Below, in pieces: positions 58 to 1,990 of a stretch of 64,000 nt of DNA; positions within the stretch are counted from its first letter, which is position 1; each line of letters opens with the position of its first letter. The stretch is from an uncultured Holophagaceae bacterium (GTDB lineage Bacteria > Acidobacteriota > Holophagae > Holophagales > Holophagaceae). Under the pieces are notes generated by a model that was given only the letters and a program-made list of their open reading frames with translations, searched no databases and was not told the origin of the DNA. The translations under genes were made by a program, and so were the position numbers. Where the stretch lies: NCBI GenBank assembly GCA_903857495.1, contig CAIOFF010000042.1, positions 62,001 to 126,000 of the forward strand, in the 5' to 3' direction.

Positions 58-528
58 ATGACCCCACCCCCCGCGAGAGTCTGTACCTGGTGCGGGAAGG
101 ATGCGGGTTTCGGGACCTGGCCCCTCCCAAGCCACATCTGCAAAGCGTGCTATGCAGAGCTGCTCGGGGTTCCCTCCCTGACGAGAGAGTCGATCGACAC
201 CCTGCCCTATGGTGCGATCGAGCTGGATGTAACTGGCTCGATCCTGACCTACAACCAGGCGGAGGGAGACCTCGCGGGACTGGACCCCGCCCGAGTCATT
301 GGGAAGAACTTCTTCAAGCAGGTGGCCCCCTGCACCGACGTGAAGGCCTTCCAGGGTCGGTTCGCCGAGTTCATCCATTCGAACGCGGGCCCGCAGTCCT
401 TCACCTTCATCTTCCAGTTCCCGGGCAGGCCCGTGGAGGTGAACATCACGTTCATCAGCACCGATCGGGAGACCGCGATGGTGCTCGTCCACACGCTCGG
501 CTCGAAGCCGACACACGAAGCTGGCTGA
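58..528 (+). CDS. Photoactive yellow protein (PYP)-like PAS sensor with N-terminal Cys4 knuckle
   Basis: This 156-residue protein is probably a cytosolic light or ligand sensor. Residues 45-146 align without gaps over the core of photoactive yellow protein. The run GAIELD, the pair YN, AEGD, then VIGKNFFK and VAPCTD all follow the PYP pattern. Tyr65, Glu69 and Cys92 keep the exact spacing of PYP Tyr42, Glu46 and the chromophore-bearing Cys69. The positions of PYP Thr50 and Arg52 are Ala73 and Leu75 here. Upstream of the PAS core, Cys9/Cys12 and Cys28/Cys31 form a CxxC-15-CxxC knuckle that looks zinc-binding. The ATG follows an AGGA box. The TatD-like gene starts 20 bases downstream, so the two are probably co-transcribed. 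Family membership is well supported. Binding of p-coumaric acid and a photocycle are inferred, and no tyrosine ammonia-lyase or coumarate ligase gene is in the window. Confidence 0.85.
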   Translation: MTPPPARVCTWCGKDAGFGTWPLPSHICKACYAELLGVPSLTRESIDTLPYGAIELDVTGSILTYNQAEGDLAGLDPARVIGKNFFKQVAPCTDVKAFQGRFAEFIHSNAGPQSFTFIFQFPGRPVEVNITFISTDRETAMVLVHTLGSKPTHEAG

Positions 529-548: not shown

Positions 549-1247
549 ATGCCCACCCTCTTTGATGCCCACAGCCACCTGCCTCAGCCGGGAAGTCCCG
601 AGCCGAGGCACGGATGCGTGCTCTGCGGGACCCGCGAGGCCGACTGGGTGGCGGTGCTGGCCCACGCCGCGGGCCACTTGCAGGTCATCCCCATGCTGGG
701 CCTGCATCCTTGGTTCGCAGCCGAGGCGGCACCCGGGTGGGAACTGCGCCTGGAGGCACTGCTGCGGACCCACCACTGCGGCATCGGCGAGTGCGGCCTG
801 GACTTCAGTCGGCAGGCTGCGGACCGGGCCGCGCAGGAGACGGCCTTCCGGACTCAGCTGCGCCTCGCGCAAACCCTGGGGCGCCCCGTGGCCATCCATG
901 CGGTGCAGGCCTGGGGACGCCTCCTGGATTTGCTGCGGGAGGAAGGCGTGCCTAAGGCGGGGGCGCTGATCCATGCGTACTCCGGCAGCCCGGAGACCGC
1001 CCAGGTGCTGCAGGGCCTGGGCGTTTTCCTCTCCTTCTCCGGGGATCTCCTGGCACCGAATCGGCCGAAGCCGCAGGAGGCGCTGCGCTCCGTGGCCGCG
1101 GACCGCCTGCTGCTGGAGAGCGACGGCACGGCCGACCTGCGACAGGTGCTCGAGGCTGCCGCCGCCCTGCGCGGGGTCGGGCCGGAGCTCCTCGCGGCCC
1201 AGACCTGGGAGAATGGGCGACAGTGCTTCAAGGAGTGGCTGGCATGA
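549..1247 (+). CDS. TatD-family metal-dependent hydrolase
   Basis: The 232-residue product looks like a TatD-type TIM-barrel hydrolase, a cytosolic family that includes 3'-5' DNases. The visible metal-site motifs come in the expected order: DAHSH at residues 6-10, GECGLDF, AIHAV, LIHAYSG and LESDG. I chose the ATG at 549 because the HxH motif begins six residues later, and the reading frame further upstream overlaps the PYP-like gene. The stop overlaps the tcdA start as ATGA. The protein is somewhat shorter than E. coli TatD (about 260 residues), so its substrate is uncertain. Confidence 0.85.
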   Translation: MPTLFDAHSHLPQPGSPEPRHGCVLCGTREADWVAVLAHAAGHLQVIPMLGLHPWFAAEAAPGWELRLEALLRTHHCGIGECGLDFSRQAADRAAQETAFRTQLRLAQTLGRPVAIHAVQAWGRLLDLLREEGVPKAGALIHAYSGSPETAQVLQGLGVFLSFSGDLLAPNRPKPQEALRSVAADRLLLESDGTADLRQVLEAAAALRGVGPELLAAQTWENGRQCFKEWLA

Positions 1248-1990
1248 GGTGGTATTCCCGCAGTGAGCTGCTGCTCGGCGAGGCGGCGCTGGACCGGCTG
1301 CGCCAGGCGCGCGTGACCGTGTTCGGACTGGGGGGCGTCGGCTCCTTCGCCGTGGAGGCCCTGGCGCGGGCGGGCGTGGGCCACCTGCGCCTGGTGGACC
1401 ACGACGGCGTCGGCCCCAGCAACCTCAACCGCCAGCTCTACGCGCTGCGCTCGACCCTGGGCCAGCCCAAGGCCGAGGTGGCCGCGGCCCGGGTGCGGGA
1501 CATCAACCCCGACTGCGACGTGGAGGCCCTGGTCACCTTCATCCACACAGACACGCTGCCGGCGCTGCTGGAGCCCCGCCCCGACGTGGCCATCGACGCC
1601 ATCGACTCCATGACCTGCAAGGTGGCCCTCATGGTCACGGCCCACCAGCAGGGCCTCCCCCTGATCTCCGCCATGGGGGCCGGGGGCCGCCTGGATAGCA
1701 GCCTGCTGCGCGTGGGCGACATCAGCGAGACGCGGCTCTGCCCGCTCGCCGCCCGGGTGCGCAAGGAGCTGCGCAAGGCCGGCATCACCCAGGGCATCCG
1801 CTGCGTCTACTCCCTGGAGCCCGCCGACAACAAGCGTCCGGCCAATCCCGTGGACATCGAGCCCCACCGCGGTCCCGGCCGGGTCAGGCGACCTGTGGGA
1901 ACGATTTCCTACATGCCCGCCATCGTGGGGCTTAAGGTTGCAGAGGAAGTCTTGCGAATGCTGCTCGCAGCCCCCCCGACTAGCCTTTGA
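1244..1990 (+). CDS. tcdA: tRNA threonylcarbamoyladenosine dehydratase (TcdA/CsdL-like)
   Basis: This ThiF/MoeB/HesA-type E1-like enzyme of 248 residues is expected to adenylate and cyclise the t6A base at position 37 of ANN-decoding tRNAs, giving ct6A. The nucleotide-binding site GLGGVGS lies at about residues 26-32. VDHDGVGPSNLNRQ follows, and the C-terminal PVGTISYMPAIVGL stretch is typical of TcdA/YgdL. The start overlaps the preceding stop (ATGA), so translation is probably coupled to the hydrolase. TcdA normally works with the CsdA/CsdE sulfur system, and neither is visible here. Confidence 0.88.
   Translation: MRWYSRSELLLGEAALDRLRQARVTVFGLGGVGSFAVEALARAGVGHLRLVDHDGVGPSNLNRQLYALRSTLGQPKAEVAAARVRDINPDCDVEALVTFIHTDTLPALLEPRPDVAIDAIDSMTCKVALMVTAHQQGLPLISAMGAGGRLDSSLLRVGDISETRLCPLAARVRKELRKAGITQGIRCVYSLEPADNKRPANPVDIEPHRGPGRVRRPVGTISYMPAIVGLKVAEEVLRMLLAAPPTSL

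Follow-up and report, generated by a model that had tools for sequence, protein, structure and literature searches.

The open reading frame at 58-528 of the window, by which we mean the whole 64,000-nucleotide stretch of DNA from an uncultured Holophagaceae bacterium analysed here, raises the question of whether a PYP-type photoreceptor has been joined to a Cys4 knuckle and, if so, what the knuckle does. An earlier note, made from the letters alone, had proposed that this frame keeps the PYP chromophore cysteine and the Tyr42 and Glu46 equivalents at exact spacing, behind a CxxC-15-CxxC knuckle that PYP itself lacks. Both parts of the proposal were borne out, as set out below, and the features concerned are collected in Table 1.

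Table 1. Features of the knuckle-PYP gene and the two genes downstream of it, in window coordinates
Feature	Position	Strand	Evidence
Knuckle-PYP gene; stand-alone protein, 156 aa, ATG start	58..528	+	Orthologues, purifying selection, TIGR02373 match
Putative Cys4 knuckle CTWCGKDAGFGTWPLPSHICKAC, residues 9-31, at position of PYP N-cap	82..150	+	Conservation of the Cys residues and of x15; sub-threshold zinc-ribbon matches
PYP-type PAS core, residues 45-130 = PYP 22-107	190..447	+	phmmer, TIGR02373, Foldseek
Y65 codon = PYP Tyr42	250..252	+	Alignment; invariant in genus set
E69 codon = PYP Glu46	262..264	+	Alignment; invariant in genus set
C92 codon = chromophore cysteine Cys69	331..333	+	Alignment; invariant in genus set
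TatD-family hydrolase gene, downstream (context only)	549..1247	+	PF01026, E 2.6e-42
ThiF-family gene overlapping TatD end (context only)	1244..1990	+	PF00899, E 1e-44

The PYP core and the N-terminal knuckle

The PAS core of the product aligned with that of PYP without a gap, which puts Y65, E69 and C92 at the three positions expected, and it has IGKNFFK and VAPCTD in common, letter for letter, with Halorhodospira halophila PYP, as had been recognized. The four cysteines lie at C9-x2-C12-x15-C28-x2-C31, with the claimed spacing, and in the same alignment the knuckle and linker (residues 1-44) occupy the exact place of PYP residues 1-21. The replacement of Thr50 and Arg52, two residues said to tune the photocycle, was also correctly read (A73 and L75 stand there), but is unremarkable, since Ala50 and Leu52 are the consensus of the PYP family (PMC12826048).

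On this and the following evidence the product is a true PYP-family protein. It matched TIGR02373 (photo_yellow) over residues 45-134 with an E-value of 3.6e-30 and a score of 104.6 bits, and PYP chains in a phmmer search with an E-value of 5e-22. Every PDB sequence match with E up to 1 (33 of 33) was to PYP or a PYP-derived protein, which excludes a generic PAS protein; the generic Pfam PAS family also matches, as it does in other PYPs. The TIGR02373 score is lower than the equivalog cut-off of 143.05 bits, but this model is reported to find no more than about 20% of PYP homologues (PMC9664959), and a distant PYP homologue from Caballeronia scored 62.6 bits, below the knuckle-PYP. An AlphaFold (AF2) model built from a three-row alignment had a mean pLDDT of 62.7 and a pTM of 0.53, with values of about 50-57 in the knuckle. 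With this model as query, the best 40 PDB matches in Foldseek were all PYP or PYP-derived FAST tags, with E-values down to 1.8e-9. As the model is modest, PYP membership rests mainly on the sequence comparisons. The profile search and structure prediction for which the earlier note had called therefore both led to PYP, and the contrary outcome that it had named, in which PAS families other than PYP would match best and the cysteine would not be conserved, did not appear: PYPs matched best and C92 is invariant in the genus.

The knuckle probably binds zinc, as its motif suggests. It matched no Pfam family above cut-off and so could not be assigned to a known Pfam domain; its best PDB match was no better than E 0.027. 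DZR_2 was weakly matched by 14 of 16 knuckle members, at E 1.5e-4 in the best case; the knuckle of the window itself fell below every cut-off, and there were further weak matches to rubredoxin-like and treble-clef families. Such zinc-ribbon, rubredoxin-like and treble-clef matches would fit zinc binding, and prove nothing. When the phylum was searched for the short-loop knuckle pattern, 12 PYP genes and three short frames of other families were returned; none of these three carries a recognizable sensor, and the short-loop knuckle was accordingly rejected as a module of other sensors in the phylum.

A different cysteine module, a C-terminal tail with the pattern CxxC-x29-CxxC (CKKIRDDxGYW...THGICPDC), recurs in the genus on otherwise different sensor proteins, both in the window's own genome (L089, L099) and in relatives (L088, L092, L094, L097, L098, L100). 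The two members scanned gave no Pfam family above cut-off. The tail resembles the PYP knuckle in having two CxxC pairs, of which the second lies within HGIC-x2-C, but it is C-terminal with a loop of 29 residues, whereas the PYP knuckle is N-terminal with a loop of 15. In local HHalign comparison the second half of the tail matched the PYP knuckle with a probability of 92%, from two shallow profiles, whereas end-to-end comparison was weak (22%). The two modules look similar in kind, and may or may not share descent.

Distribution, selection and genomic setting

PYP matches were present in 24 of the 77 genomes of the family and in 19 of the 47 genomes of the genus. The knuckle form accounts for 19 genes in 18 of the 47 genus genomes, G351 having two. 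Among the 19 PYP-bearing genus genomes, one (G420) has a PYP without a knuckle (L153). The four cysteines and the x15 spacing are invariant in the 18 tabulated genus genes and the same in the 19th (L148), which rules out a chance cysteine motif. The Tyr42/Glu46/Cys69 triad is kept in all 19, and across the 18 knuckle genes aligned the equivalents of I31, Y42, E46, F62, F63, A67, P68, C69, F75, F92 and F96 are invariant; triad and cysteines hold even at about 40-49% identity. In the same set Ala or Ser occupies position 50, and Leu, Met or Arg position 52. The equivalents of Met100 and Trp119 are lost from the knuckle-PYPs, and Tyr94 and Tyr98 are replaced by Phe.

Compared with the nearest orthologue (90% amino acid identity), NG86 dN/dS was 0.048/0.330 for the first 150 codons and 0.062/0.416 for residues 1-44 taken alone, about 0.15 in both cases. 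By this measure, close copies of the knuckle-PYP are under purifying selection, knuckle included, and selection together with the orthologues rules out a shadow ORF. The phylum yielded a second knuckle-PYP, with x17 spacing, from another family (G126, L085). The tree, which has long branches, does not settle whether the knuckle-PYPs are one clade, and an AU test did not reject union with the G126 gene (p 0.22). Outside Acidobacteriota, the survey comprised one genome-contig scan and collections of plasmids and phages. No phage match was found; three matches to viral contigs were short and partial, the one inspected being an unrelated CxxC ORF, and a viral origin was therefore dismissed.

The earlier note placed the gene beside tRNA and DNA hydrolase genes. 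A TatD-family hydrolase gene does adjoin it, followed by a ThiF-family gene that we take to be probably that for tRNA threonylcarbamoyladenosine dehydratase, but the only tRNA gene found within the window is at 47.8 kb. Among the PYP loci, TatD and ThiF lie downstream only in the window and in its nearest relative (L018); they therefore give no clue to output and were rejected as functional partners. At eight other genus loci maeB is a neighbour of pyp, and some of these also have a DUF302 gene, on one side or the other; further loci are elsewhere, in unrelated places. With pyp at several different locations in the genus, and TatD and ThiF not kept, the notion that the neighbours hint at an output route fell away. 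The DUF302 gene was likewise rejected as a partner: it is adjacent on the same strand in some genomes, in either order, and missing in others. The SirB1-like and PP2C-like neighbours are convergent, and hence form no operon with pyp. Across the genus loci compared, there is no conserved operon partner.

Several genus genomes have the maeB/SirB1-like site without a PYP gene, the two genes then lying close together (50-117 bp in the tightest cases). Genomes of the genus differ in whether this site holds the PYP (and DUF302) gene (L188-L198), which represents gene gain or loss. We conclude from the varied neighbours and from the occupied and empty maeB sites that the knuckle-PYP gene is an accessory gene whose place varies between lineages. 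In L018 a response regulator gene and a histidine kinase gene (109-1855) lie divergently upstream of the orthologue; this arrangement does not occur in the window's genome.

PYP was also described in the earlier note as known mainly from proteobacteria. This holds by number, 67% of 984 PYP homologues being from Pseudomonadota and 2.4% from Acidobacteriota (PMC12826048), but the family has been reported from 10 phyla, Acidobacteria included (PMC9664959). PYP in Acidobacteriota is already known; the variant with a knuckle for the N-cap may be new. The main texts of Xing 2022 (PMC9664959) and Dohmen 2025 (PMC12826048) mention neither the knuckle fusion nor zinc nor Holophagaceae, although their supplementary sequence sets may list such sequences. 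Geothrix, which we infer to be the probable genus, is not mentioned in the main text of Dohmen 2025, and the part of the literature covered gave no match for PYP with Geothrix. The multi-domain class of Dohmen 2025 takes in proteins of >200 aa only (PMC12826048), a criterion that would hide the 156-aa knuckle form.

Chromophore supply and possible function

A lyase of family PF00221 was found in 30 of the 31 genus genomes searched, apparently as one gene each, with two genomes giving two partial pieces. Those inspected, including that of the window's own genome, have HutH motifs. The latter is the only PF00221 lyase of its genome; it scored 630.5 bits against the HutH equivalog (cut-off 539.15), and this score and the motifs SHAAGVG and KEDHVSMG rule it out as a TAL. 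The search for a tyrosine ammonia-lyase suggested for this genome therefore yielded no dedicated enzyme, its only aromatic lyase being HutH. The companion search for coumarate-CoA ligase fared no better: when five genus genomes were searched with a CoA ligase that is associated with PYP, only weak partial matches and no PYP-type pCL were found. The best match in the window's own genome (E 2e-8, with 33% identity across a third of the query) compares with 44% over 355 residues and E about 1e-90 for the pCL directly beside pyp in G036 and G038. G129, a genome of the same family, has besides its first lyase another that is TAL-like and lies close to an AMP-binding enzyme. In published pyp operons pCL is present in 32% and TAL in 5%, and uptake of p-coumarate (pCA) from the environment, or broad enzymes, has been considered as the source of chromophore (PMC12826048). 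As a pyp gene with neither alongside is common, the missing dedicated genes are suggestive, not decisive, and a broad-specificity CoA ligase could conceivably activate p-coumarate.

Blue-light sensing by the knuckle-PYP is likely. We think it fairly probable that it is a stand-alone PYP in which a Cys4 knuckle replaces the N-cap and p-coumarate sits on Cys92, and in which a change driven by blue light alters the packing of the knuckle and its contact with a partner. The p-coumarate, taken from the environment or activated by a broad-specificity CoA ligase, would form a thioester with Cys92, its phenolate held in place by Tyr65 and Glu69. Blue light would isomerize it, whereupon Glu69 would lose its proton; rearrangement of the core would then alter the packing of the knuckle and linker (residues 9-44) on the core, and the knuckle would gain or lose contact with its partner. 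Hydrogen-deuterium exchange (HDX) indicates that the light signal of PYP reaches the N-terminal cap (PMC4477167), and we count this in favour of a PYP light sensor, together with the family match, the invariant triad and pocket, the kept knuckle and the dN/dS of about 0.15. Against it we count the TIGR02373 score, the missing TAL and pCL, the loss of W119 and M100, the changes Y94F and Y98F, the low confidence of the knuckle model and the want of a conserved partner.

The main rival of a p-coumarate light sensor is a PYP fold that binds a different ligand (thiol-reactive or phenolic) or uses Cys92 and the four knuckle cysteines to sense redox state, and not light. It would account for the lack of TAL among the lyases inspected and of a PYP-type pCL in the five genomes, as well as for the altered residues at positions 94, 98, 100 and 119. 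For some methylobacterial Ppr-PYPs a redox switch has been suggested (PMC9664959). Those proteins, however, have lost Cys69, whereas here all three pCA-contacting residues (Cys69, Tyr42 and Glu46) are invariant, and most predicted pyp operons are also without pCL and TAL (PMC12826048); we therefore hold this rival to be rather unlikely. We give still less weight to a non-photoactive remnant that has drifted since its chromophore supply was lost. Such a history would be in keeping with the dedicated chromophore genes missing from the searches made and with the patchy occurrence of any PYP in the genus (19/47), but it is hard to square with a dN/dS of about 0.15, with the invariance of triad and cysteines among such divergent genes or with the several different placements of the gene, and it is very improbable.

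The protein might also work as a PYP with the knuckle serving as a zinc-stapled structural cap only, signalling being left to the usual PYP surfaces with no special output. The exact substitution of residues 1-44 for PYP 1-21, the lack of a zinc family match above cut-off and the lack of a conserved partner gene are what such a cap would lead one to expect. The similar CxxC...HGICxxC module at the C-terminus of different sensors in these genomes is not: a shared interaction role fits that recurrence better than a cap specific to PYP, even with common descent of the two modules no more than possible, and a purely structural knuckle appears improbable. Extending the light-sensor reading, we suggest tentatively, and as a proposal that may well be wrong, a light-switched zinc-knuckle adaptor, in which the knuckle would be the output surface for a dedicated partner and the chromophore would be environmental p-coumarate, so that light would be reported only when the phenolic is present.

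How stand-alone PYPs relay their signal is an open question (PMC12826048). A discrete knuckle exchanged for the N-cap, which is known to receive the light signal, offers a compact test of the idea that the cap is the output, and a PYP triad set apart from dedicated chromophore genes makes the source of chromophore, or another ligand, directly testable.

Comparison with known PYPs

The knuckle-PYP shares with H. halophila PYP (clade A of Xing et al. 2022) the PAS core, the Tyr42/Glu46/Cys69 triad, the IGKNFFK and VAPCTD runs and the form of a small stand-alone protein. It differs in having a Cys4 knuckle for the N-cap, in Ala50, Leu52, Phe94 and Phe98, in lacking Met100 and Trp119, and in having no pCL or TAL beside its gene. 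The canonical PYPs of G036 and G038 come from the same class of Acidobacteriota and have the Cys69 triad; unlike the knuckle-PYP, they have no knuckle and keep Thr50, Arg52, Met100 and Trp119. In both, the pCL adjoining pyp is the one that matches the Caballeronia pyp-linked ligase at 44%, and in G036 an aromatic ammonia-lyase gene follows.

Multidomain PYPs also occur in Acidobacteriota. Fusions of PYP to a histidine kinase were seen within Holophagaceae, the window's own family (L137 in G129, L156 in G436), and fusions to a V4R-like domain in L136 (G376) and L155 (G427); PYP-HK and PYP-V4R are published types (PMC12826048). EAL-like proteins with a C-terminal PYP that keeps the triad were found in L133 (G212), L151 (G429) and L154 (G430). 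All these are like the knuckle-PYP in carrying a PYP core with the triad kept, in the same family or phylum, and unlike it in that the core is fused to a kinase, V4R or EAL domain instead of a knuckle.
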